A stretch of DNA of 42,024 bases from a virus, in the IMG/VR virus record IMGVR_UViG_3300028920_000137, positions 1 to 42,024 of that record; one strand, written 5' to 3'. Positions 3,312-42,024 of the stretch are shown here, in pieces. The notes beneath the pieces are model-generated. The model saw nothing but the letters and a program-made list of their open reading frames with translations. It was not told the DNA's origin and ran no database searches. The position numbers and the translations under genes were made by a program. Numbering within the stretch: position 1 is the first letter of the stretch; each line of letters opens with the position of its first letter.

Positions 3312-4250
3312 CTAGGCAACGTAGGCGTTCGTTCCTTCGTAAACGTAGTACTGGTTGACGACCGTCTCGGCCGAGATGTACTCGACCTGAATCATCGTCC
3401 CGCCGTTGACGCCGCGCTCCGGGACGTTCCAGCGCCTCACCCTCTTGGGCGAGAGCGTCAGGTCGTAGCCCCAGCTCGCATCCTCAAGAGCCGGACGCGG
3501 GTTGACGCGGATCAGGTAGATGTTGTTCCCCCAGACGTAATCCAGCGATTCCGTCGCTCCCTCGTCTGCGGCATTCTTCACCTGCCCCGCAACCAGCGGA
3601 ACCATGCCCGCGACCTTCGGCGGCAGCGCCCCGAAGTTCTCCAGGCGGTCAGCGTGCGTGTACTTCACCTGCTCTTTCCAGCTCGCGCACTTGACCATGT
3701 AGCTCTTGATGTGGCGCGGGATGATGACGTGCGTGGGTGGCGCACCGGTCGCCTTCTCGAATAGCTCGGCCATGGTCTCGAGGTCCGCGAGGGGGTCGGC
3801 CGTGGCGACGGTGTTCCACTTCGTACTGGAGCTGCTGATGTCGTACTCCTGCCCCGTCGTGTCCGTCGTGGCCGCAAGAAGGGCCGCGACTCGGATCTCG
3901 CGGTTCAGGTCCAGATTCCGCGACAACTTCTCGGTCGTCGTGATCAGCGGCTTGATCGGCGCGTCCGCGTTCTTGATAACGCGGCTCGGGACGAACGACT
4001 TGAGCGCATGGCCGACGCAGATGTACGTTCCCGTCGTGGTGTACCAGCGCAGCTCGCCCGCCTCTTCGTGGTCGCCAATCACGTCTTCCGTCGGTAGCAG
4101 CTCTTCCTTGTAGAACCGATAGAAGATGTCGCTTTCCTTCGTCACCGGGACCGGCGGCAGAATCGTGTCAGCGATGAAGCCCCTGTATGAGTACGCCTCC
4201 GCGATCTTGGTGAGCGCCGTATCCTGATGCACTTCGCGCCTTGTGGGCAT
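3312..4250 (-). CDS. Major capsid protein
   Basis: This 312-residue protein sits directly after the protease/scaffold and decoration genes, the canonical place of the major head protein. Its composition and layout fit an HK97-fold capsid protein of the kind with little or no N-terminal delta domain: N-terminal TALTKIAEAYSYRGFIADTI, a central DLNREIRVAALLAAT helix, THVIIPRHIKSYM, and the C-terminal strand VNGGTMIQVEYISAETVV. The ATG at 4250 has AAGGGGGAATCC upstream. The frame is open 12 codons further but without a good start. A 115-base gap separates it from the decoration gene and shows only weak inverted repeats. Confidence 0.8.
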   Translation of the reverse strand: MPTRREVHQDTALTKIAEAYSYRGFIADTILPPVPVTKESDIFYRFYKEELLPTEDVIGDHEEAGELRWYTTTGTYICVGHALKSFVPSRVIKNADAPIKPLITTTEKLSRNLDLNREIRVAALLAATTDTTGQEYDISSSSTKWNTVATADPLADLETMAELFEKATGAPPTHVIIPRHIKSYMVKCASWKEQVKYTHADRLENFGALPPKVAGMVPLVAGQVKNAADEGATESLDYVWGNNIYLIRVNPRPALEDASWGYDLTLSPKRVRRWNVPERGVNGGTMIQVEYISAETVVNQYYVYEGTNAYVA

Positions 4251-11379: not shown

Positions 11380-12036
11380 CTATTCCTCTCGGTGCTCCCG
11401 CCAGAACAGGCACAATCCGACGACGATGGTGCCGTGCGCATCACCCGTTCCGGTACCCGTCTTGTTCCATTCTTCCCGTACGGCCAAATAGATCTCGGTT
11501 TCATCGGGATCAAGGGATATTGTCAGCCCCATGACGCGTGTGCGTTCGGGCATTCCTTCTGCCATCTTGTCGAAGTCAAAGTCGGTGAGCCGTGCATAGG
11601 CGTCTATTTTCTCCCTGCCAAATGGGAGAGTTTCCGTTAGCTCGTCGAGGCCAAATCGCGCCACGATGTCCTTCATCACGGCCGCAAGTCGCAGCTCTTC
11701 CGTTGGGAACCGCGTTTCGTTCAGCTCTACAGCAACCCGCTCGGCTTCTTGCTTGGAAATGCGGCCGAGGTTGACAACCATGACCGTTTCGTAGCCTAGC
11801 TCACGCACGACTTCGAGCCGGTGATTGCCATCGACCACCTCCAGCGCATCTGTCTTACCGATCTCGCGAACGATCAGGTTGACGATGAGGCCGTTGCGCT
11901 CAATGTTCGCCTTCAGCGCTGTTGCGCGCTCGGCATCGTCTTCCTTGTAGTTCCAAGGAGCCCGCCGCAGACGACTGACGGCCACCTCCTGCCACGCGCT
12001 GCTCAATCTTCCCACACCACGCCCCTCTCGGCCCAC
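11380..12036 (-). CDS. ParB/sulfiredoxin-fold protein, possible DpdB-like partner of DpdA
   Basis: This 218-residue protein has a ParB-N/Srx-type domain: EVAVSRLRRAPWNYKEDD, GLIVNLIVREIG, then the nucleotide-site motif DGNHRLEVVRELG and a helical segment. The C-terminal ~60 residues end in a short hydrophobic patch (TIVVGLCLFW). Such domains hydrolyse nucleotides or act as DNA-binding nuclease-like modules. Two readings are open. ParB-fold proteins are common beside phage terminases. Bacterial dpd DNA-modification clusters, however, need DpdB, a ParB/DndB-like protein, together with DpdA, and this gene overlaps dpdA by 34 bases. The start is uncertain: the GTG at 12036 is used. Confidence 0.7.
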   Translation of the reverse strand: MGREGRGVGRLSSAWQEVAVSRLRRAPWNYKEDDAERATALKANIERNGLIVNLIVREIGKTDALEVVDGNHRLEVVRELGYETVMVVNLGRISKQEAERVAVELNETRFPTEELRLAAVMKDIVARFGLDELTETLPFGREKIDAYARLTDFDFDKMAEGMPERTRVMGLTISLDPDETEIYLAVREEWNKTGTGTGDAHGTIVVGLCLFWREHREE

Positions 12037-12839
12037 AGGCTTGTCAGAAACCTCTCATACCTCACGGATTGGCAGACCCCCTCTCGCACTCTCCAATCAG
12101 TGCTATATAGCACTTCGTGGCGTCGGGCTCGCATCAGCCTTTGCTTACTTGTGAATGTCGGGGCCCTGCCGTTGCTCGTCTTGAATGCCCCACCGTACAT
12201 GGCGGGAGCGAGAACGCTGGAGCTATCTGCGGAGTAGAACGGGAATCGCTCGAGGTACTTCGCCCTGATCATGGCGAAGCCGTGTATCCGCACCGTGTCA
12301 CGGGTCAGGTCAAAGATCCGGTTCAATATCGGAATGGAGTCCCTTCCGACGCCGACGTACGTGTGCCCCTCATCAATCCAGCGTCGGAGCGTGGACAGGT
12401 TGCCGTCATCCAGTCGTGGATGATAGACTCGTATGTATCTCAAGGCCCCGCCACCCGCCGAGACCGCCTCGCGGACACGTTCATGGGCTCGCGCGAGCAC
12501 CTTCTCGGTAAGCAGCGCATACACATCAAACTCGACGACCGTGATCGCCTGATCTCCGCGCTGCTCGATCCAGCTAAGGTATTCCTCGTGGTACATCTCC
12601 GCGTCTGGTAGGCGTTTCATGCCAACCCCGCCCGCTGCCGCCCGCGTCTCGAAGAGCTTGTTCCATGAGTGCGCGCCCGAGTCTACCATCAGGCGGTAAC
12701 CCTGCTTGGTTCTGGCGTCTGCCATTATGCTCTCGGCTTCGCGTCTTTCTAACCGATAGGAATAGAGCTTGTTCCCGCCTAGCTCCAGCACGGCCTCACG
12801 AAACGAACGCCTGTGTCCCCCGGCCAGATATAGTTTCAT
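12003..12839 (-). CDS. dpdA: DpdA-type tRNA-guanine-transglycosylase homologue acting on DNA
   Basis: This 278-residue TIM-barrel-type protein matches DpdA, the TGT paralogue that swaps guanine in DNA for a 7-deazaguanine base. It shows VDSGAHSW (residues 52-59; Asp53 equals the TGT base-recognition Asp), EFDVYAL (103-109), a YVGVG loop (161-165; TGT base-binding Gly loop), HGFAM (186-190) and SADSSSVL (203-210). The last holds Asp205, the likely nucleophile, in the DSSS context typical of DpdA. It lacks the TGT zinc site, as DpdA proteins often do. The ATG overlaps the glycosyltransferase stop as ATGA. The adjacent FolE/QueD/QueE genes supply the base, which strongly supports the call. Confidence 0.88.
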   Translation of the reverse strand: MKLYLAGGHRRSFREAVLELGGNKLYSYRLERREAESIMADARTKQGYRLMVDSGAHSWNKLFETRAAAGGVGMKRLPDAEMYHEEYLSWIEQRGDQAITVVEFDVYALLTEKVLARAHERVREAVSAGGGALRYIRVYHPRLDDGNLSTLRRWIDEGHTYVGVGRDSIPILNRIFDLTRDTVRIHGFAMIRAKYLERFPFYSADSSSVLAPAMYGGAFKTSNGRAPTFTSKQRLMRARRHEVLYSTDWRVREGVCQSVRYERFLTSLWAERGVVWED

Positions 12840-13825
12840 ATCATGGCCTCAACGATGTGTCTCACGTCCGAACCTGTCTCTGGAGCCATGGGTGGAAGCG
12901 TACCCTCGAGGGCCTTCTGCACAAGCTCCGCTCCCTCAGCAAGATCATCGTACCGATACCGGTCCGAGAATAGCTCTTGGTATGACAGCCGATCTGGCAC
13001 AACGGGAACCGCGCCGCAGTTCACCGCCTCCTGCATGGCTATGCCAAACGTCTCCTGCTTCGCCGTCGAGACTGCAACGGTAGCGCGGGAGAGAAGGGCA
13101 TAGTAGGCAGCCTTGTCCCCACATACCCGCTTGGTCAGCAACCACTCGACAGCATCATGCTCGCGCCCGTACCGTGTCTGCCACAAGTCCCGCATCCGAT
13201 AGAATGCGCCGACATCCTTTTCGGGCGCCAGTCTGTGAGGGAACACGACAAGGGCTTCCCGTTCTGTATTCCGGCCACACCGGGGGCAATCTCTCGCATC
13301 TATGACGGGGAAGCGTGCGACCTCAATGCGTACAGGCGCGACGCCTCGCGCGCCGAGCACCAGTTGCCGATGGTACTCCGTTGCCACAAAGACTTGATCT
13401 ACCATTGTCAGCCAGCCGCGTTCAGAGTACTGCGCCCACGGAGTCAATCCGTTCTGACTGAGATAGTCCCACTTGTCCCACGTTCCCGCGTGCAACATTC
13501 CCGACAGCTTGATGCGCCGTCTGGCGTTGTCGCGGAGATACCCCAAGTGGCAGAGCCCGGGGAACCAAAGGTCCATGAAGAAGATCGTACCCTCAAACCC
13601 GTCCCGAATCAGGCGAATCATATCTACCATCTGCCTCGCCTTGTACTCAGACGTGCCGTACACGTCAAGGAACTGACCCACAGAGATTGTCGCGGGCCTC
13701 CTGTCCCCGACTGTTAGCACCTCGCAGCCACAGCGCTCAAAGTCCCTCATGAACCAAGAATACCACTGCGCGGAGTAGCGTTCTTCCAGCGGTTCGATAG
13801 GAACAAAGAGCACGCGCTTCCCCAT
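12836..13825 (-). CDS. QTMAN-like family 4 glycosyltransferase, predicted to act on the deazaguanine
   Basis: This 329-residue GT-B enzyme has a C-terminal half that reads like tRNA-queuosine mannosyltransferase (QTMAN, formerly GTDC1/DUF3524). FPHRLAPEKD (195-204) matches the WPHRWEHDKD block. STAKQETFGIAMQEA (253-267) with GAVPVVPDRLSYQELF matches STAKHEFFGVAMLEA with its CGCYPLCPKDLVYPEIF. The N-terminal half is less alike and holds a CPRCGRN zinc-type knuckle near 180. QTMAN adds mannose to queuosine, a 7-deazaguanine. Here the gene lies inside a deazaguanine DNA-modification operon and overlaps dpdA, so glycosylation of the inserted base is the natural inference. The sugar donor and acceptor are unknown. 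Confidence 0.8.
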   Translation of the reverse strand: MGKRVLFVPIEPLEERYSAQWYSWFMRDFERCGCEVLTVGDRRPATISVGQFLDVYGTSEYKARQMVDMIRLIRDGFEGTIFFMDLWFPGLCHLGYLRDNARRRIKLSGMLHAGTWDKWDYLSQNGLTPWAQYSERGWLTMVDQVFVATEYHRQLVLGARGVAPVRIEVARFPVIDARDCPRCGRNTEREALVVFPHRLAPEKDVGAFYRMRDLWQTRYGREHDAVEWLLTKRVCGDKAAYYALLSRATVAVSTAKQETFGIAMQEAVNCGAVPVVPDRLSYQELFSDRYRYDDLAEGAELVQKALEGTLPPMAPETGSDVRHIVEAMI

Positions 13826-13827
13826 GG

Positions 13828-15210
13828 CTATTCTCCCAAGACGCCATTTCGCGCAAGCAGCCCGTACGCCAGCGCGTCTGTGCGGGTGTGGATCAAATCG
13901 CGGAAGGTACTGCCGCGTTCAGCCCGCCTGACATACGCCGTCACATGCAGCAAGTCGCGAGCCCATGTTTCGCGGTACCATTGCCACATGGCGCGACATT
14001 CTTGCGAGACGCTGGCCCCCGTTTTCCGCCGCGCACCCCCTCTTGGCGTTGCCGCAGTGTCAAGAAAGGAGGCCGGTATCACATTGGGGAGCAGCCGGTG
14101 GTACTGCCCCTCACACCAAAGCGCCCCCTCGTCGTATCCGCCCAACACGAAAGCCGCAAGATCGAAGTATGGGACGGCGCACTGCCCCAACCCGCTGGCT
14201 GTGAAGTTGTGCCGCATAGCCGGCGTGATCGCGCTTGGATCAGCGCCGTATGCCCTCAAGAAACGCGCCGTTTCTCTCATGTGCCACGGAGTCTCTCCAG
14301 GAAGAAAACTCACGTTGAGGAAGATAACTGCCGGACGGCCCAGCTCACGCGCGGCGGCCACTGAAAGCTCCCCAAGCCGTTTGATGTCCGCGTTCTTTCC
14401 GGATAGCCGCCGCTCTGTGAGGCCGACGCCCTCAAGGCCGGTGTGTATATGAGTCATGCCATACCTGCGCACCAGCTGTGTCAGCGCAATCCCCGTTTCT
14501 TCCAGAAAAGACAACACGCTGGCCGACGTCCCCATGCAGTACCATGGCAGGCCGACGTCTCGCAACACCCCTGCAACGGCAAGTGCGCGACCGGCGTCGT
14601 CAAAGAAGTCGTTGTCGAGAACGACAAAGCCTGTAGCACCCCACCGTTCTCGCATACCGGTTGCAACAGACCTGACCTCTTCGGGCGTTAGTCTCTGCTC
14701 GCGCCACCCGCGGACCTTTCCCGAGATCGTATTCAAGCAGAACGCGCAGGCGTTTGGACAGCCACGCGTCGTGAAGAGCGGTACCGCACGGCCCTCATGC
14801 TTCCGGTCGGCAGTCAGGACCATCGATCTGTCATATCGCGCGTAGCGGCGCGCCTCGTCGTCTGTCAAACACGACGGCAACGCGATCATGGCGTCCCGGT
14901 ACGCACTCTGTGCGACGGCCGGTGCCACCGAGCCCATGCCGCAAAACCCAAGGGGCGCAGGCAAGACCGATGCCCGCCCGCCCGCTAACCGCAGAATCTT
15001 TGATGCCAGCGGCATTTGAGACTCGGCCCAGAGCGCGAGCACAAGCGGGTCGCCGCTTGAAAGGTGCACATGAGCATCTCCCATTCCCCGCACGAAATGA
15101 TGTTCTACTTCCACGCCCGCTTGCCGCTGCGCAGCGAACCAGAACCACGGATCATATGACTCTGGAGGACGCACGACCTCTTCACTGTCAATGTCTAGCA
15201 ACCGGATCAC
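13828..15210 (-). CDS. Radical SAM enzyme, probably B12-dependent, in the deazaguanine cluster
   Basis: This 460-residue protein has an N-terminal ~120-residue Rossmann-like part and a radical SAM core with C-x3-C-x2-C (RGCPNACAFC; Cys151, 155 and 158). That is the layout of cobalamin-binding radical SAM enzymes, although the usual B12-binding histidine motif is not obvious. The core continues with GFVVLDNDFF and THIHTGLEGVGLTERRLSGKN. A helical, Cys-containing C-terminal region follows. GTG at 15210 overlaps the previous stop (GTGA) and has GGAG eight bases upstream. Enzymes of this class methylate or rearrange unactivated carbons. Here it may build or alter the side chain of the 7-deazaguanine. 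The substrate is unknown. Confidence 0.78.
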   Translation of the reverse strand: MIRLLDIDSEEVVRPPESYDPWFWFAAQRQAGVEVEHHFVRGMGDAHVHLSSGDPLVLALWAESQMPLASKILRLAGGRASVLPAPLGFCGMGSVAPAVAQSAYRDAMIALPSCLTDDEARRYARYDRSMVLTADRKHEGRAVPLFTTRGCPNACAFCLNTISGKVRGWREQRLTPEEVRSVATGMRERWGATGFVVLDNDFFDDAGRALAVAGVLRDVGLPWYCMGTSASVLSFLEETGIALTQLVRRYGMTHIHTGLEGVGLTERRLSGKNADIKRLGELSVAAARELGRPAVIFLNVSFLPGETPWHMRETARFLRAYGADPSAITPAMRHNFTASGLGQCAVPYFDLAAFVLGGYDEGALWCEGQYHRLLPNVIPASFLDTAATPRGGARRKTGASVSQECRAMWQWYRETWARDLLHVTAYVRRAERGSTFRDLIHTRTDALAYGLLARNGVLGE

Positions 15211-15569
15211 AGGCCACACTCCACGGCTCCCCCCTGCCTCCCGTCTTCGGTGACCTCGACTCGGCAGGCACGCCGCCCCCCCCCGACAGCTGGCATCTCG
15301 ACCCGCAGATGTTCCGCCAGCTCTGCTGCGACCGCTTCACACGAAAACGTGCCCTTCATTCCGGGCAGCTCCCTTTCTGTCCATTCGCGAATCGCTTCGG
15401 TCACATCTTCACACGCCAGCTCTCTGTCCTTGCCAGTAACCTCCACCCACGCCCGCACCTGAAACTCGTGCTCGTGCACGTGTCGCAGATGACCGAGGTG
15501 TGTCGGAGCGTCCGGCCAACAGTGACGCGCCACGAAAGAGAAGGTTGTCACCACCCACACTCTATTCAT
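15207..15569 (-). CDS. Second QueD/PTPS-fold protein without catalytic Cys (possible DpdL-like decarboxylase)
   Basis: This 120-residue protein has the 6-pyruvoyl-tetrahydropterin synthase pattern: TTFSFVARH (His16) and HEHEFQVRA (His32, His34), the zinc triad, plus FSCEAVAAELAEHL matching TCEAIADYLW of the canonical QueD nearby. The catalytic Cys that lies four residues before the HxH in QueD is Leu28 here, so it should not make CPH4. A QueD paralogue beside full FolE-QueD-QueE suggests a later step. Phages with 2'-deoxy-7-deazaguanine have a predicted CDG decarboxylase, DpdL, and I recall but cannot confirm that it is QueD-related. The start overlaps folE (ATGAATAG). Confidence 0.75.
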   Translation of the reverse strand: MNRVWVVTTFSFVARHCWPDAPTHLGHLRHVHEHEFQVRAWVEVTGKDRELACEDVTEAIREWTERELPGMKGTFSCEAVAAELAEHLRVEMPAVGGGRRACRVEVTEDGRQGGAVECGL

Positions 15570-16167
15570 GTCCACCACCCTGAATTGCCCGCATGAACTC
15601 CGCTCGGGTCCGCGCATCTTGTCGAAACGATCCAAGCAGGACGGTCGTTTCCATGTGCGCATCTTGCTGCTTCACCCCGCGGGCGACCATGCACAGATGC
15701 CGTGCCCGAACATGGACACCGACACCCGCTGGTGACAGGCCCGTATTGATCGCGTCGGCGATCTGCTGCGTCATGCGTTCTTGGATCTGTAGCCGCCGCG
15801 CAAACGCCTCGACCACGCGCGCCAGCTTGGACACGCCCACAACCCGGCCGTCCTCTCCGGGAAGATACGCAACGGACGCCTCGCCGATGAACGGCATCAG
15901 GTGGTGTTCGCACATTGAGACGAAGCCGATGTGTCGTAGCACGATCATCTGGTCATAGTCGGGGCAACTGAAGCCGCAATCGCCGGTCACAGAGGACATC
16001 AGAAGGGCGTCAATGTCGGCGTCATATCCGGCTGTCAGCTCATCCCACATTCTGGCGACCCGTGCTGGCGTTCCGCGCAGGCCCTCCCTGTCGGGCTGCT
16101 CGCCAATGCTTGCAAGCAGCCGTACGGTTGCGGCCTCCCGTTCCTGTCTTGCGGTGTCGTGGTTCAT
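15562..16167 (-). CDS. folE: GTP cyclohydrolase I
   Basis: This 201-residue enzyme converts GTP to 7,8-dihydroneopterin triphosphate, the first step to 7-deazaguanines. The zinc ligands are visible in CEHHLMPF (Cys86, His89) and HLCMVARG (Cys159), with the catalytic HH pair. The family signature GVSKLARVVEAFARRLQIQERMTQQIADAI spans residues 111-140. The N-terminal helices (DREGLRGTPARVARMW) are complete, so this is a full type I FolE. The ATG at 16167 overlaps the queE stop (ATGA) with AGGA upstream. Its place between queE and the QueD paralogue shows the pathway is carried as one unit and feeds dpdA. Confidence 0.95.
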   Translation of the reverse strand: MNHDTARQEREAATVRLLASIGEQPDREGLRGTPARVARMWDELTAGYDADIDALLMSSVTGDCGFSCPDYDQMIVLRHIGFVSMCEHHLMPFIGEASVAYLPGEDGRVVGVSKLARVVEAFARRLQIQERMTQQIADAINTGLSPAGVGVHVRARHLCMVARGVKQQDAHMETTVLLGSFRQDARTRAEFMRAIQGGGHE

Positions 16168-16796
16168 CGGAGTCCTATGAGTTTGTGAGCCTGAATGCTC
16201 ATCTTCCATGAAGGCGATGCGCCCGCGTGTTCGATCACCTTTCTTGCCAATCGCACAGCCGCCTCATTCCCGCCGCTCCACTCGGGCTGCACGAAGTAGT
16301 CTCGAGCCTGAGGCCATGACGGGTCGAGGTCGGGTAGGGGCTCGTCGTCCAAGACGACGACCTTGATTTCGTCTGCGCGTTCGATGCGAACAGGCTGCCC
16401 CGCCTTGGGCGAAACCGTCAGCCACGGCCATTCCCACACCGCGGGCCATGACGGGGACGCTCCTGAGCAGAGTGAGTACGTCCCGTTCGTCTCCACGTGT
16501 ACCTGAATACGTCTCCGCGCCAGCTCACGAACGAGCTTCGTTAGACCCTCGCGTTGCACGAAGGGCTCGCCCCCAGTGATACAGACGTGCGGGGCGCTCA
16601 TTGTGATCACCCGCGTTATCAGCTCTCCCACGCTGACCCGCTCAGTCGCGCGATAGTCAGTGTCACACCACGGGCAGTTCAGGTTACAGTGAGCGAACCT
16701 GATGAAGAACATTGGCGTCCCGACCCACAACCCTTCCCCTTGGATCGAGCCGAACGTCTCGGCGATATCAATCAGGCCGTCAGTTGAACGCCGCAC
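16164..16796 (-). CDS. queE: 7-carboxy-7-deazaguanine synthase (radical SAM)
   Basis: This protein of about 210 residues converts 6-carboxytetrahydropterin to CDG, using SAM and a 4Fe-4S cluster. The N-terminus has ETFGSIQGEGLWVGTPMFFIRF, diagnostic of QueE, then C-x3-C-x2-C (Cys37, 41 and 44; CNLNCPWC). TGGEP is at residues 74-78, followed by ETNGT and SPKAG. GTG at 16796 is chosen because GGGAGAG lies six bases upstream. A TTG at 16811 is possible. It overlaps queD by 25 bases and folE by 4, which indicates translational coupling. Confidence 0.95.
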   Translation of the reverse strand: MRRSTDGLIDIAETFGSIQGEGLWVGTPMFFIRFAHCNLNCPWCDTDYRATERVSVGELITRVITMSAPHVCITGGEPFVQREGLTKLVRELARRRIQVHVETNGTYSLCSGASPSWPAVWEWPWLTVSPKAGQPVRIERADEIKVVVLDDEPLPDLDPSWPQARDYFVQPEWSGGNEAAVRLARKVIEHAGASPSWKMSIQAHKLIGLR

Positions 16797-17119
16797 CTGT
16801 CGCTCTCCCAAAGCTCCAGCTCAACCACTTCCACGCCCGGCGGCATCGCACACGACAACGACTTCCACAGGTAGTCAGCTATGGCCTCACACGTGGGCGA
16901 CGCCTCTAGGTTCAGGTCGTTCAGGTAGGAGTGGTCTGGTAGTATCGTGTCGATGATCTTCTTCAGCGTCAGGAAGTCCGTAGCCATGCTTGTCACTTCG
17001 CTGACCGGCGCCGATACTGTGACTGTCCCGCGCCACGTGTGCCCGTGCAGCTCCGCACACGCACCCGGATGACCGGGCAAGCGGTGAGCCGCGCAGAACT
17101 TGAATCGCACCCGCTGCAT
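16772..17119 (-). CDS. queD: 6-carboxytetrahydropterin synthase
   Basis: This 115-residue QueD makes 6-carboxy-5,6,7,8-tetrahydropterin from dihydroneopterin triphosphate. The zinc ligands are His12 (CAAHRL) and His25/His27 (LHGHTW). The catalytic Cys21 (GACAELHGH) is in place, as are His63 of PDHSYL and Glu105 of LWES. The length is normal. The first possible ATG (17152) falls on the edge of a terminator hairpin, so the ATG at 17119 is used, although no clear Shine-Dalgarno is visible. It is the first gene of the modification cluster. Confidence 0.93.
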   Translation of the reverse strand: MQRVRFKFCAAHRLPGHPGACAELHGHTWRGTVTVSAPVSEVTSMATDFLTLKKIIDTILPDHSYLNDLNLEASPTCEAIADYLWKSLSCAMPPGVEVVELELWESDRCGVQLTA

Positions 17120-22577: not shown

Positions 22578-22877
22578 TCACTCCTCCTCCAGTCTGTCGG
22601 CCAGCTTCCAGATCACGTCCTTGACCTCCAGCGCGCACTTCCGAACCTCCGTCCCCACGTCCACCTCCGGCTTCGCGGGCTTGTCGTAGAGCGGGAGGCC
22701 GAGGCGGGCCTTCAGGTTTTGGGGTGACACATACACACCCCCCCACCACTTGTCGATCTCCCCCGCCAGCCACTCGGCGAGGGCGGGAGTCACGGCGGCC
22801 AAGAAGTGTGGCCTTGTCCACGTCACAATGCCGGACGGCCCGAACGTCTCGTGCGTCACTCTCTCCTCGAACGTCAT
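22578..22877 (-). CDS. Hypothetical protein
   Basis: This 99-residue protein has TFGPSGIVTWTRPHFLAAVTPALAEWLAGEIDKWWGGVYV, then VDVGTEVRKCALEVKDVIWKLADRLEEE. Mostly helical, acidic C-terminus. It overlaps the RusA-like gene by four bases (ATGA). No family is recognised. Confidence 0.6.
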   Translation of the reverse strand: MTFEERVTHETFGPSGIVTWTRPHFLAAVTPALAEWLAGEIDKWWGGVYVSPQNLKARLGLPLYDKPAKPEVDVGTEVRKCALEVKDVIWKLADRLEEE

Positions 22878-23440
22878 GTCACTCCTCCTCCAGACTTGAC
22901 TCTCGGTCCGATGACGAATCCCGCTGGTGGTACCTCACCCTTTCTGTACGGCCCGTGCAAGAAGAACTCAATCCACCCGCCGCCCTGATCCCACTTCACG
23001 TACTCCAGCCGTGTGTGGAGCCACTTGTCGCCACCGCGCTTTCCCGGAAACAGAATATCCTCAATCGCTTTGCACACATTTCCCGAGTCTCCGAACCGGC
23101 GCCCTTTGAAGCCGATCCGAACGTCGAGATAGTATGCCTGCCCGTCCCCCTTTGACGCCTTCGCCATCGTCTCTTGTGCTTTCGCGACTTGCTGACGAAC
23201 CTCTGTTGACAGTCCGGCGCGAAACCAGTTCGCGAACGCCACGTACCGTCCCCACGCCGTCAGCCGCTTCTCTGCCTTCCCCGTTCTTGTGCTGACCACG
23301 GTCTTGTGTGTGCGCCACTTCTGACCGCGCGTCGTCCGAACCTTGGGCACAGGATTCCCCTGCGGGTCCCATGGGGTGCCGGCAACAATCGTGCCACCTA
23401 TAGGCCGCGCCTTGGCCCTGCGCCACCTCTGTGCCTCCAC
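22874..23440 (-). CDS. RusA-like Holliday junction resolvase
   Basis: This protein of about 188 residues starts at GTG 23440 with GGAGG eight bases upstream. It has the RusA pattern near the C-terminal half: YYLDVRIGFKGRRFGDSGNVCKAIEDILFP, with an Asp, the Asn of the DNxxK-like motif, the Lys and a further Asp, then GDKWLHTRLEYVKW. The N-terminal part is basic. RusA resolves branched DNA, needed for concatemer processing. The gene directly follows the DnaA-box cluster, which fits a replication/recombination role. The spacing of the acidic residues differs from Escherichia RusA, so confidence is moderate. Confidence 0.6.
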   Translation of the reverse strand: MEAQRWRRAKARPIGGTIVAGTPWDPQGNPVPKVRTTRGQKWRTHKTVVSTRTGKAEKRLTAWGRYVAFANWFRAGLSTEVRQQVAKAQETMAKASKGDGQAYYLDVRIGFKGRRFGDSGNVCKAIEDILFPGKRGGDKWLHTRLEYVKWDQGGGWIEFFLHGPYRKGEVPPAGFVIGPRVKSGGGVT

Positions 23441-23660
23441 GTGGATAACCTCCTGTGTAGTCTGTGGACAAGCAGTGGATAACAGTTGATAAGTTCGCCC
23501 AACGCGCCCGGCGTCCACATTCGTCCACGACTATCAACTGAGTTACCAACACCACCCGTCACCGCCTAACCGTCCTCGCACCAATGAGTTTCGCGCCCTT
23601 ATCCACTAATCCACTGCCACTACTACTACTACTAGTTTTCTATCTCTTAGTAGAACTAGT
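23440..23660. other. DnaA-box cluster with AT-rich hairpin: candidate replication origin
   Basis: This is one of the two longest noncoding stretches (23441-23777). TTATCCACA-like boxes occur at 23440-23448 (minus, TTATCCACG), 23463-23471 (minus, TTGTCCACA), 23474-23482 (minus, TTATCCACT), 23484-23492 (minus, TTATCAACT), 23531-23539 (plus, CTATCAACT) and 23599-23607 (plus, TTATCCACT). The three central boxes are 10-11 bases apart. From 23621 follow TAC repeats and an AT-rich inverted repeat (ACTAGTT...AACTAGT), unlike the surrounding GC-rich DNA. It lies between the RusA-like gene and a putative recombination gene. The rest (23661-23777) shows nothing definite. Confidence 0.6.
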
Positions 23661-23777
23661 ACTCTTGGCGGGGAGGAAAGGAGGAAGCGGAGTGCATCCG
23701 AACCCCTCAGAACAACACACCTCCCGCTCCCTCCCGAGATGGGCCCCATCCATCTCGCCCCCCCATATCCTCAAGAC

Positions 23778-25457
23778 CTAAAACGGAAGGTCGTCTCTCA
23801 CCGTTCCTCGGGCCTTCATGAATGCCGTGGCTCCCGGCATCTTCTGTGCCCGGGAGGCAATGAGATAGTCACCCGCTTGCAGCCACTCCACGATTGCCTT
23901 GTCGTGCTCTGTTAGGACCGCAGCGAACCGCTTGAGGTCTGCCAAGGGCAGCTCGGAGAGAGCCTTGATCCGCATCGCGCCGAGGATCCCTTCGCGCATT
24001 CCTTTTCTGACGAGCTCTGCTTTGGCCCCCGTTGCGTCCCCGTCGGGGATTGTCAACCGTACGGCAAGTACAATCGCGTCCAGCAACGACAGGCACGTCT
24101 GTAGCATATCAATGCGTTCTTGGAGCGGCTCGGCCCCGGCGCCTTGTCCTTCTGTCGGCGTCTCGCTTTCCGCTTCTGGCGGGTTCGCTCCCGCTGTGTC
24201 ATCCCCGACCTCCCTAGGGCCCGGGACCGCGCGCGACTGCGCTCTTTCTTCGTGGGGCGCGGCAGGTCCACTCTCCGCATCCGCAACCTCCTTCATCGGC
24301 ATATCAGCCAGTACGTCCTCATAGCCCTTGTTGGCCATCCAAAGCACGAAACTCTCTATCTTCCGATCCAAGACCGTCCGCACGAACTCAATCATGTTCG
24401 CGCTCATCCCGTCAAAACTGTCACACGACCCACGACCGGCGCCGCCGTCTCCGGCGAACATATCACGCCACGCCTGACTTGAGGTCACTGTCCAGATGAG
24501 AGCGCGTCGGCCCTGTCGTTCTACCTCGTCGCGGGTCGTTTCCGTCGGGTCCCAACGAACGTGTGTCATCACCTGATCCCACGCGACGAAGAACCGTTTG
24601 AGTGCCCGCTCCCGCGCCTCCTTAGGATCCAGCTTCCGCTCAATCTGGCGAGGCTCGTCCCGCACAGCCTCCGTGCGTCCCTTGGACGGCGGCGGGATTG
24701 ATACAACCCGCCCCCCTTCGATTGCGGTTCTGATGAACAGTTCCACCTTCGCTATCGGCAGGCAGGCCGCTAGCGCGTTTCGCTGTGCTAGGCTCGCCGC
24801 AGTTCGGCGAGCAAACCGGTCCCATTCGCCGTAACGATTCAGTGCCGCACGGCTACCGGAACCATATCGCTTCATCCCGTCCGCGTCGGTTGCCCAGCAG
24901 TCAGCGTTGTACACCTGAACGACCGTCCCATCCTTTTGCGTGACCTCCTCGACAAAGACCTCGCATCGGTCAATGGTGATCCCCTGCCCGTGCTCTTGGT
25001 AGGTTCGAGCCAGCTCCTTCACGCCGTTGTAGTTCAGCTGGTAGTGGTCCTGTCCTTTCTCGTCCTGCCAGTGGACAACCAGCTCGCGGAGCAGGGCCTC
25101 GCCGGATAGCTCCCTCTGGATGAGGGCGATGTCGAGCGTCTCCATCTGCTCGAACACGTCCTTGCCGTTGACCGGGATCACAGGAGCGGCAACCACCTCT
25201 TTGCCTGTGGCCTCGTTGGTAACGATCCGACCTTCCCCAACAGCACCCTCTTCCGGCTTCTCGTCCGGCACGCCGATATGAAACACCTTGCCCGAAGCTG
25301 AGCGTACCAGCTGCCACGTTGCAGCGTCGGGTTGCGTACGGGTTGCGGCCTGTCGGCACTTGGCGCACACTTCCGTGTCCGGCGGGCGTGCCTTATCTGT
25401 GAACTCGAAGTCACGCCATCGCTCGTCCATTGCTCTCCCGCAGTACGTTTTGTTCAT
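23778..25457 (-). CDS. Large putative recombination or replication protein
   Basis: This 559-residue protein starts at ATG 25457 with GGGGGA upstream. It begins with a zinc-type knuckle (TYCGRAM...CAKCRQ). The centre has WQDEKGQDHYQLNYNGVKELARTYQE and DCWATDADGMKRYGSGSRAALNRYGEWDRFARRTAASLAQRNAL. That is the basic, Ala-rich helical pattern typical of phage single-strand annealing and related proteins. A long Pro/Ala/Glu linker follows (~400-460), then a helical C-terminal part. It sits by the origin candidate, the Gp157-like gene and the RusA-like gene, as recombinases do. The family is not established. Confidence 0.55.
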   Translation of the reverse strand: MNKTYCGRAMDERWRDFEFTDKARPPDTEVCAKCRQAATRTQPDAATWQLVRSASGKVFHIGVPDEKPEEGAVGEGRIVTNEATGKEVVAAPVIPVNGKDVFEQMETLDIALIQRELSGEALLRELVVHWQDEKGQDHYQLNYNGVKELARTYQEHGQGITIDRCEVFVEEVTQKDGTVVQVYNADCWATDADGMKRYGSGSRAALNRYGEWDRFARRTAASLAQRNALAACLPIAKVELFIRTAIEGGRVVSIPPPSKGRTEAVRDEPRQIERKLDPKEARERALKRFFVAWDQVMTHVRWDPTETTRDEVERQGRRALIWTVTSSQAWRDMFAGDGGAGRGSCDSFDGMSANMIEFVRTVLDRKIESFVLWMANKGYEDVLADMPMKEVADAESGPAAPHEERAQSRAVPGPREVGDDTAGANPPEAESETPTEGQGAGAEPLQERIDMLQTCLSLLDAIVLAVRLTIPDGDATGAKAELVRKGMREGILGAMRIKALSELPLADLKRFAAVLTEHDKAIVEWLQAGDYLIASRAQKMPGATAFMKARGTVRDDLPF

Positions 25458-25482: not shown

Positions 25483-26052
25483 TCACGACTTCGGCGATGT
25501 GATCCGCAGCGATTCCGGCGTCCGATCCCACGCAAAACCGGGCGGCAGCTCTCCGGTCTGCTTCATGTGTGTCAACGCCTTCCTCGTGTCGCCGCTCTTC
25601 GTGTATCGCGCAAACTCCTCGGGTACTGCCTCAATGTCTGTGACAATGAGTTTGTCCCTGCCCTCGAGCCGCGATACCGTGAACCCCGCCTTCGTCTTGA
25701 CGCTCTTGTGGTTGTCTTCTTCGAGAAGAACCCGCATCACTTCTCGGCATACCACGCCCCATCTTTCAGCCGTCGTTCGCTCCAAGGACACTCGCTGAAC
25801 TTCGCGCTTTGCTGCGGCAGCCACTGCCCCATAGGCGTCAGCTACCAGCACAAGAATGTCGAGAGCATCCGGCATGGTCGGGGCAAGAGCACGCGCCGCC
25901 TCGACTACAGCCGCAAGCCCGCCTTCCGGCTCGTCATCGTTGATGAAGTCAGTGAGGGTGTCGTGAAAGGCAGGTGCAAGTGTGGATCGAAGCACGCGCG
26001 TGAGTGGTGTGAGTTCGTTGTGCAGCTGTCGCTCGTCTTCTTTGTGTGTCAT
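25483..26052 (-). CDS. Gp157-like siphovirus protein
   Basis: This 189-residue protein matches the C-terminal pattern of the siphovirus Gp157 family: a helical N-terminal half with AAKREVQRVSLERTTAERWGVV, KAGFTVSRLEGRDKLIVTDIEAVPEEFARY, then MKQTGELPPGFAWDRTPESLRI. Gp157 proteins usually sit beside recombination genes and, in Streptococcus, were linked to phage resistance. The ATG at 26052 has GGAGGGG upstream. The downstream neighbour is the putative recombination protein, which fits the usual context. Confidence 0.7.
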   Translation of the reverse strand: MTHKEDERQLHNELTPLTRVLRSTLAPAFHDTLTDFINDDEPEGGLAAVVEAARALAPTMPDALDILVLVADAYGAVAAAAKREVQRVSLERTTAERWGVVCREVMRVLLEEDNHKSVKTKAGFTVSRLEGRDKLIVTDIEAVPEEFARYTKSGDTRKALTHMKQTGELPPGFAWDRTPESLRITSPKS

Positions 26053-26088
26053 ATTCGGCTCCCCTCCGGTTGTGGCCGGGTACCAAAA

Positions 26089-26133
26089 CAAGGATGCCCA
26101 AGGCACGGTCGTGGTGACACTTGGGCATCCTTG
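26089..26133 (-). terminator. Perfect 14-bp inverted repeat upstream of the Gp157-like gene
   Basis: CAAGGATGCCCAAG (26089-26102) and CTTGGGCATCCTTG (26120-26133) are exact inverted copies with a 17-base loop. Read on the minus strand the stem is followed by TTTT (TTGTTTTGG). It lies between the 144-residue gene (stop 26215) and the Gp157-like start (26052). It may end transcription, attenuate it, or act as an operator. Confidence 0.6.
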
Positions 26134-40996: not shown

Positions 40997-42024
40997 TCAT
41001 CGTAGTACTGGACCGATGACGACCGACAACAGAAGTGTTGACCGCTTCTCGTATGGATTCCCCTCCCGCCTGCCCGTCTGCGTGTCGTACTGCACCGCTT
41101 CAAGATCAATCCAGCGCACCATGCCATCAAGATTGTTCTTTGACAAGAGTGCTGTGATCTTGCTTGTGAGCCACAGTAGCCCTGCGCTACTGGCGACGAG
41201 GGCTTCCGGTGAGCTGGTTGCCTTCATCATGCAGGGGTGGACGCTTACAAGCAGAGTATCAACGGCGGGTTGCTCGACATGGAAGTCTGCCGTGTCCGTC
41301 CACACACCCGCCATGTTACCGGGGCGGTTGACGGGGCAGACGTAAACGCCCACGGACCCCTGAAGCGGGATCTGGTCAATGGCCGACTCAAAGCACTGCA
41401 CCGTTCCCGCCCATCCCGTAAGAGCTGAAAGCTCCTCGTCTTCCTCGATCTCGTCGGCTATGGCCTGTACGATCTCCACGTCGGTCGGAGACGACACAGT
41501 ACCCGCCGTTGACAGGTATGTGATCCCTACGGCGCTGATTGTCGGCTGCTTCGTATGGTCCGCGCTGTTTGTGAGCGTCACGCGGAGTTGCATCTCATCC
41601 CAATCCGCACCGACGCCGCTGAGGTTGCCGTCCACGGGAACCGCTGTCCAATCGCCCCAGCTACCGCTGGACTGTAGCCTGTATTCCCACAGCGCCTGCC
41701 CCGCCACTTCAGCGTCTTCATCCTCCGATTCGTTGAAGTGGTGAATCAGCTGACGAACCTCGCCAAGAGACGACGGGCGCTGCCACGATGTGGTCATCGT
41801 GAAAACCCCGTCGCGCTGACGATATAACGTAGGGAGCGCATGGCCGCTTTCGCCGCCCGCGCCGATCCACCAGTCCGATTCGTCGCCCGTATTCTGGAGC
41901 GCGAACGTACCCGTGTGGCTCCGTGCCATGTAGTCGCACGCGATCCGCTTACGCCCGTCTTGGTCGTAGCTCAACGTCGTCCCGGCCGCCCGAATGGTGA
42001 CCGTGTACCACGTATCCAGCACCC
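40997..42024 (-). CDS. Tail-terminator-position protein, C-terminal part (starts at 406)
   Basis: These 342 codons continue the gene from 406. The junction reads ...NDED-G-VLDTWYTVTIR in one frame. The first ~80 residues here finish a beta-sandwich (DTWYTVTIRAAGTTLSYDQDG, TGTFALQNTGDESDWWIG). A Ser/Gly-rich beta region follows. The last ~150 residues (VQAIADEIEEDEELSALTGWAGTVQCFES, VDTLLVSVHPCMMKA, LDGMVRWIDLEAVQYDTQTGRREGNPYEKRSTLLLSVVIGPV) have the alternating layout of a tail-terminator domain. Together it is a 477-residue fusion, far longer than typical terminators (~130-150). Both fold calls are inference. Confidence 0.7.
   Translation of the reverse strand, partial: VLDTWYTVTIRAAGTTLSYDQDGRKRIACDYMARSHTGTFALQNTGDESDWWIGAGGESGHALPTLYRQRDGVFTMTTSWQRPSSLGEVRQLIHHFNESEDEDAEVAGQALWEYRLQSSGSWGDWTAVPVDGNLSGVGADWDEMQLRVTLTNSADHTKQPTISAVGITYLSTAGTVSSPTDVEIVQAIADEIEEDEELSALTGWAGTVQCFESAIDQIPLQGSVGVYVCPVNRPGNMAGVWTDTADFHVEQPAVDTLLVSVHPCMMKATSSPEALVASSAGLLWLTSKITALLSKNNLDGMVRWIDLEAVQYDTQTGRREGNPYEKRSTLLLSVVIGPVLR

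Follow-up and report, generated by a model that had tools for sequence, protein, structure and literature searches.

A probable host-DnaA-dependent replication origin of bacterial oriC type in an uncultured phage genome

A non-coding stretch in the genome of an uncultured phage is built like a bacterial chromosomal origin. We analyzed IMG/VR virus record IMGVR_UViG_3300028920_000137 over its whole length of 42,024 bases (here, the window), and we consider it very likely (probability about 0.85) that positions 23440-23661 are a phage replication origin that resembles bacterial oriC in its construction and depends on host DnaA. The assignment is drawn from sequence, without experiment. What can be read directly is how the elements are ordered, spaced, and oriented, that relatives conserve them, and which genes are present. 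The site and its neighborhood contain the following features.

22874-23440, minus strand: RusA-like resolvase gene (phrog_6537, E 6e-6)
23440-23448, minus strand: DnaA box TTATCCACG, 1 mismatch to TTATCCACA
23440-23492, minus strand: inverted DnaA-box array, with starts at 23463, 23474, and 23484 phased by 10-11 bp
23463-23471, minus strand: DnaA box TTGTCCACA, 1 mismatch to TTATCCACA
23474-23482, minus strand: DnaA box TTATCCACT, 1 mismatch to TTATCCACA
23484-23492, minus strand: DnaA box TTATCAACT, 2 mismatches to TTATCCACA
23543-23551, plus strand: weak DnaA box TTACCAACA, 2 mismatches to TTATCCACA
23599-23607, plus strand: DnaA box A of the unwinding module, TTATCCACT, 1 mismatch, aligning with boxes in four relatives
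23607-23615, plus strand: DnaA box B of the unwinding module, TAATCCACT, 2 mismatches, tandem to box A with an 8-nt step and overlapping it
23616-23619, plus strand: GC-rich spacer GCCA ahead of the trios (read from sequence)
23620-23634, plus strand: five DnaA-trios (CTA x5), invariant in the alignment of five phages
23635-23661, no strand assigned: A+T-rich stretch past the trios, the presumed opening region, containing a 7-bp inverted repeat
23778-25457, minus strand: 559-aa gene, probable Rad52-type single-strand annealing protein (low-confidence model; ERF protein in relative G022)
25483-26106, minus strand: Mu Gam-like end-protection protein (phrog_253, E 9e-6)

The non-coding stretch between the RusA-like gene and the 559-aa gene, both on the minus strand, is the densest DnaA-box cluster of the window. 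Seven DnaA-like 9-mers with at most two mismatches to TTATCCACA lie inside 200 bp, four of them with one mismatch and three with two (23440-23615). A sequence-only reading of the same DNA had reported six DnaA-like 9-mers in 170 bases, three of them spaced 10-11 bases, and had proposed a host-DnaA-dependent start; the cluster and the spacing (23463, 23474, and 23484) both held. When the entire window was dinucleotide-shuffled 60 times, no 176-bp stretch contained more than two boxes at one mismatch or less (observed, four) or more than four at two mismatches or less (observed, seven). The best five-slot score of the phased inverted array exceeded 200/200 shuffles in each of five phages, the window and its four relatives. 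Counting against the DnaA-origin reading, the boxes of the window depart from the consensus at the ninth base (CACT, CACG). A GC-skew plot, suggested earlier as a check, gave no signal and no turning point and is evidence neither way: the cumulative skew declines almost monotonically over the whole window without marking the site, as is expected because nearly all genes lie on one strand.

Downstream of the inverted array, the plus-strand order over 23599-23634 is TTATCCACT, the overlapping TAATCCACT, GCCA, and CTA x5, the same arrangement as in the basal unwinding system (BUS) of bacterial chromosomes. According to the published BUS search rules, a box with at most two mismatches is accompanied by a partner with at most four, a spacer of at most 16 nt with a peak at 10-13 nt, and at least three trios (PMC8287927); the upstream box is usually closer to the consensus, and 3'-GAT-5' is the commonest trio (PMC8287927). 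The window meets every one of these sequence rules. The main box (23599-23607) has one mismatch to TTATCCACA and its tandem partner (23607-23615) has two, the first trio begins 12 nt after box A, within the permitted 0-16 nt and in the peak range, and five perfect trios follow. That DnaA separates the strands here is inferred. The trios read 3'-GAT-5' on the minus strand, which is the strand that DnaA would be predicted to engage, in the absence of binding data. From 23620 to 23661 the G+C content is about 31% (hand count), against 59-62% in 1-kb windows of the region. The sequence-only reading had noted TAC repeats, which are present (23619-23635), and had missed their identity as five DnaA-trios; with the trios, the site is a complete chromosomal-type unwinding module and more than a box cluster.

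A chance cluster of DnaA-like words next to a triplet repeat has in its favor only that CTA repeats are simple sequence. The combination of a box with at most two mismatches and, no more than 16 nt after it, three or more CTA trios was found once in the window and in 0/400 window shuffles, and the arrangement is conserved in four relatives, so that this explanation is all but excluded.

The same earlier reading gave weight to a hairpin with ACTAGTT/AACTAGT arms. The arms are real (23631-23637 and 23654-23660), but the weight placed on them is not supported. Folded as single-stranded DNA, the hairpin has a z score of -1.65, with 13/200 shuffles folding equally well, and it is absent or different in relatives. 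Being neither significant in the window nor conserved, it was rejected as part of the mechanism, and the 7-bp inverted repeat is probably incidental. Among 12 sequences folded, a single strong structure was seen, in another phage contig (L009, 7876-7931), whose BUS trios lie inside a strong inverted repeat (z = -4.79).

Close relatives were not found with single proteins: neither the RusA-like nor the 559-aa protein had any in IMG/VR or in 50,697 phage records, and TerL alone had none in IMG/VR. Against the 50,697 phage records, TerL matched 64, all below 60% identity and at least 20 of them at 21-27%. One relative, G013 (IMGVR_UViG_3300011118_000010; 45,624 bp), was found through the motif alone, as one of the 21 matches of a motif scan described below, and is syntenic with the window; identities are 55% for TerL, 40% for portal, 47% for tape measure, 32% for the RusA-like protein, and 33% for the 559-aa protein. 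An alignment of the TerL sequences of the window and G013 then retrieved G022 (42,109 bp), G023 (52,313 bp), and G025 (43,239 bp), together with four fragments or distant records. TerL of the four large relatives is 49-55% identical to that of the window. When the same alignment was searched against bacterial genomes, none of 157 pattern-matching stretches was confirmed, and therefore neither a prophage nor a host can be named.

All four large relatives have a BUS just beyond the 3' end of the annealing-protein gene and before the RusA-like gene, with further genes separating the BUS from RusA in G013. The adjacent gene is a homolog of the 559-aa annealing protein in three of them and an ERF protein in G022. 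The strict pattern search located the BUS in only two of nine records (the window and G013); those of G022, G023, and G025 were pinpointed from their position and from the sequence itself, and subsequently by a broader pattern. The first BUS box is weaker in these three, and its weakness in G023 and G025 counts against the reading. No strict-pattern match was seen in fragments L047 and L049 or in the distant records L050/L051, although L047, L049, and L051 are short (12.3 kb at most) and may stop before the site. Over the ten pairs formed by the five phages, BUS columns are on average 83% identical and the trios 97%, compared with flanks of 45% (window 23495-23590) and 51% just past the BUS; 14 consecutive trio columns are invariant. 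Absence of the boxes in close relatives, which would have refuted the origin as first proposed, was not borne out, and the syntenic conservation expected of a DnaA-dependent phage origin is met in 4/4 large relatives.

Similar modules occur elsewhere in IMG/VR. A strict motif (TTATCCAC, a gap of 8-16 nt, and CTA x4) matched 21 stretches, whereas the same elements in reversed order matched three, two of which share one sequence. The gap was 13-14 nt, equal to a spacer of 12-13 nt after the 9-mer, in 16/21 matches. At least two further boxes (one mismatch or less) were present within 300 bp in 18/21 strict matches and in 0/3 controls. A broader tandem-box motif gave 20 stretches, nine of them common to the strict set, against 11 for a backward control, and two or more additional boxes within 300 bp accompanied 15/20 and 0/11, respectively. 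The weaker contrast of 20 to 11 is probably due to ATC repeats being commoner in other DNA, although this is conjecture. The two scans, from which the window's own record may have been excluded, yielded 32 contigs besides the window, including G013, G022, G023, and G025.

Judged by comparison of proteins at the loci and by identical context, without a phylogeny, about 20 lineages carry the motif. L016 was left out as a probable chance match, since its motif lies inside a 1,921-aa tail-fiber ORF with one other box; this contig encodes its own DnaB and polymerase A. In a protein check of 20 contig groups with two ORFs each, which did not cover L149, 15 reached E <= 1e-8 for a protein of the virion or of packaging (L027 barely, at 2e-9). 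The other five had GroEL and a methyltransferase, an unnamed phage family, RecT, a primase, and a sliding clamp with a methyltransferase. DnaA was found above the cutoff in none of 33 records (0/22 and 0/11), with one sub-threshold match in G015; DnaN was found in 5/33, DnaB in 2/33, and polymerase A in 1/33. Many of these contigs are fragments, so the absence of a gene there counts little. In a second family, L002/L145, five common proteins are 43-56% identical and the BUS is kept about 400-460 bp upstream of the same gene. A further group from one metagenome, L146 (477-2826) and the near-identical L143, L147, L150, and L151, has a BUS near a methyltransferase and a diverged DnaN-like clamp, a layout that recalls the chromosomal order oriC-dnaN.

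In bacterial genomes, a pattern covering the BUS of the window and of G013 matched 69 stretches, whose sources range from Firmicutes, Thermus, and Meiothermus through to Poribacteria and Binatia. Of these bacterial stretches, 44/69 had a DnaA Walker-A signature in the examined DNA, mostly 8 kb, as against 0/58 phage loci, the latter being overlapping pieces of the IMG/VR BUS contigs. This class of motif thus marks chromosomal oriC, and at the level of sequence the phage module is indistinguishable from the chromosomal one.

Such a likeness raises the possibility that the site is a piece of host chromosome or that the contig is misassembled. For the window this is all but excluded, because the window is an entire phage genome, in which the site lies among the early genes and dnaA and dnaN are lacking, and because four relatives from other records have the site at the same place. 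For single contigs elsewhere in the collection, e.g., L146 and L149, it cannot be excluded. Completeness of the window is indicated by its end genes (419-1057 and 40997-42022), which adjoin in G013: they lie 466 nt apart there, measured between the matched stretches, and 420 nt apart in the window when its ends are joined, so that the window appears to be a near-complete, circularly permuted genome. The corresponding gap is about 2 kb in G023 and G025. For terminal redundancy of G023, 40-base probes taken at 1-kb steps from the first 14 kb did not recur in the last 18 kb.

Named phages were searched by BLAST with phage BUS regions against the 50,697 phage records, followed by a looser BUS test; this was not a systematic count. 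A BUS was recognized in 5/18 named-phage loci, all of them Microviridae. In KT264804 the first box is perfect and several boxes lie upstream; the BUSs of KT264798, phi-CA82, MG945484, and MG945694 are weaker. In these loci (KT264804.1 [L136] 3621-3745, and also L137, L139, L163, and L164), which belong to gokushoviruses and other Microviridae (single-stranded DNA phages), boxes and then trios lie near the VP4/Rep gene. It is possible that host DnaA takes part when the double-stranded form of these phages is made or copied. A BLAST match of Vibrio phage JA-1 inside rusA contained only a single box and was treated as chance. DnaA-box clusters without trios were seen in Berlinvirus, Tequintavirus, and Lactococcus, Klebsiella, and Vibrio phages; those at L166, L167, L168, L169, L171, L174, and L175, in T7-like, T5-like, and other phages, are mostly intergenic.

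Trio-less clusters may be DnaA sponges or injection signals. The phages that carry them, T7-like, T5-like, and others, have replisomes of their own, and boxes alone are consequently no proof of an origin; our argument rests on boxes together with correctly placed trios. The corresponding alternative for the window is that its boxes starve the host origin of DnaA or control the RusA-like gene, with no replication starting at the site. Three observations speak for it. (i) The start of the RusA-like gene, as read from sequence, is probably the GTG at 23440-23438 with AGGAGG at 23454-23449, and the box at 23440-23448 fills the gap between this ribosome-binding site and the start. (ii) Several named phages have the trio-less clusters mentioned above. 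(iii) T5-like phages, which resemble the window in carrying DnaA boxes in phage DNA, have boxes that belong to an injection stop signal proposed to act in DNA injection (PMC13250531); they differ in having no trios by the BUS test in the one stretch examined (L174). However, neither a sponge nor an operator has any need of trios, of a constant 12-13 nt spacer, or of a set order, and exactly these features are conserved and are enriched over the order-reversed controls. We therefore regard this alternative as unlikely, and a DnaA-dependent origin remains the better explanation.

Replication genes were sought in the window by Pfam and PHROGs scans of ten main proteins and 57 ORFs (partly overlapping sets; the PHROGs results cover only the first 25 of 41 families) and by family searches. 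The scans matched a Gam-like protein, a RusA-like resolvase, an ArdC-like antirestriction protein, FolE, QueE, and a queuine-transferase-like protein, as well as radical SAM, glycosyltransferase, ParB-like, tape measure, and amidase proteins. They recognized no polymerase, helicase, primase, or initiator; a Pfam match to the connector region of RNA helicase HrpB (E 0.0096) was at noise level. Family searches of the window likewise found no DnaA, DnaN, DnaB, polymerase A, polymerase III alpha, or phage primase zinc ribbon. Thus, the earlier statement that no phage polymerase, helicase, or primase was recognizable held in both kinds of search, and the lack of recognized replication genes in an essentially complete genome supports a host-DnaA origin. 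One feature of chromosomal origins, proximity to dnaA, dnaN, or other genes typical of a chromosomal oriC, is missing, as the window has no DnaA or DnaN. Elsewhere in the window, a minus-strand gene set (12003-16811) for the queuine-transferase-like protein, radical SAM, QueE, FolE, and glycosyltransferase is likely a pathway of 7-deazaguanine DNA modification, and a ParB-N-domain protein (11383-12036, minus strand; phrog_723, E 2.5e-19) is encoded near the terminase genes.

Many proteins of the window match no named family, so that a phage initiator of a new kind might be among them. The site might then be the origin of that initiator, with DnaA at most an accessory factor, as in iteron plasmids. 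For this alternative it can be said that the 559-aa neighbor, like many other gene products, lacks a named-family match, that phage origins often adjoin the gene of their initiator, and that some other BUS contigs encode DnaB, polymerase A, or a clamp. Against it, the module is DnaA's own, and the best structural match of the neighbor is RAD52. The 559-aa protein has no Pfam match; its structure model (mean pLDDT 50) retrieved RAD52 chains at the top, with E of about 1e-3, probability of 0.98 at most, and a TM score by target of about 0.3. An annealing role is supported by G022, where the gene at the equivalent place encodes an annealing protein of the ERF type (E 3e-14). The 559-aa protein is likely a Rad52-type single-strand annealing protein, although the model is of low confidence and the activity is inferred. 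Because the ERF protein of G022 is unrelated, no single neighbor is bound to the site. That the site is the origin of an unrecognized initiator thus appears very unlikely, and initiation by host DnaA is retained. The 559-aa protein (23778-23795, minus strand) and its G013 homolog (L026 10223-10240, minus strand) share a DDLPF C terminus that is not found in the G023 and G025 homologs. DDLPF resembles the tip of bacterial SSB, which recruits host repair proteins.

Taken as the best explanation, with the trios and the conserved module in support and DnaA binding inferred, the host-DnaA-dependent start proposed earlier suggests the following course. Host DnaA-ATP would bind the upstream phased array together with the tandem pair at 23599-23615; a DnaA oligomer would grow along the lower strand across its 3'-GAT-5' trios and open the adjacent A+T-rich DNA. 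Filling of the boxes, extension over the trios, and opening follow the published BUS model (PMC6669920, PMC8287927). The helicase loader, helicase, primase, and polymerase III of the host may then copy the circularized genome in theta mode, and the phage Gam, Rad52-type annealing, and RusA proteins, encoded on both sides of the origin, would turn the copies into concatemers for packaging. This last step rests on what such recombination cassettes are generally known to do. Binding, opening, the theta mode, and the hand-over to recombination are all inferred.

The closest known counterpart is the BUS of Bacillus subtilis oriC, which shares the tandem boxes, GC-rich spacer, 3'-GAT-5' trios, upstream boxes, and A+T-rich DNA after the trios (PMC6669920, PMC8287927); the phage module differs in adjoining recombination genes rather than dnaA/dnaN and in the opposite orientation of the near upstream boxes. 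Plasmid pTE15 has DnaA boxes and two predicted DnaA-trios in a mobile replicon, but also Rep proteins and iterons (PMC9743546), whereas no Rep protein was seen in the window. For plasmids, published data do not indicate DnaA on single-stranded DNA (review, PMC10797057). Phage lambda likewise has a theta origin and uses host polymerase, but it employs its own O and P instead of DnaA (PMC5043065), neither of which is recognizable in the window. The plasmid origin of phage P1 has DnaA boxes and is a phage-borne replicon that needs host DnaA; unlike the window, P1 depends on phage RepA and iterons, and it is not known to have a BUS. The P1 origin and DnaA are named in PMC10797057. We found no BUS described in a phage in the open-access literature searched (titles and the starts of abstracts); prior reports may exist elsewhere.

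Bacterial chromosomes are where the DnaA-trio system was defined; it has been proposed as the ancestral way to open an origin. If our reading is true, the BUS is a transferable unit that functions away from the chromosome, and dozens of short natural origins would be available for testing the minimal needs of oriC. It would explain how phages without visible replication genes are copied and why annealing and resolvase genes are kept around the site in the window's phage family. A further question is then how a lytic phage can evade DnaA's once-per-cycle control. A bolder reading, toward which we lean only slightly, is that about 20 lineages, single-stranded microviruses included, form a broad and unrecognized class of phages that carry a complete chromosomal-type DnaA unwinding module and replicate as miniature chromosomes under host DnaA, their own recombination genes replacing a phage replisome. 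In that case, their origins would be naturally occurring minimal oriCs, without the regulation to which chromosomal origins are subject.
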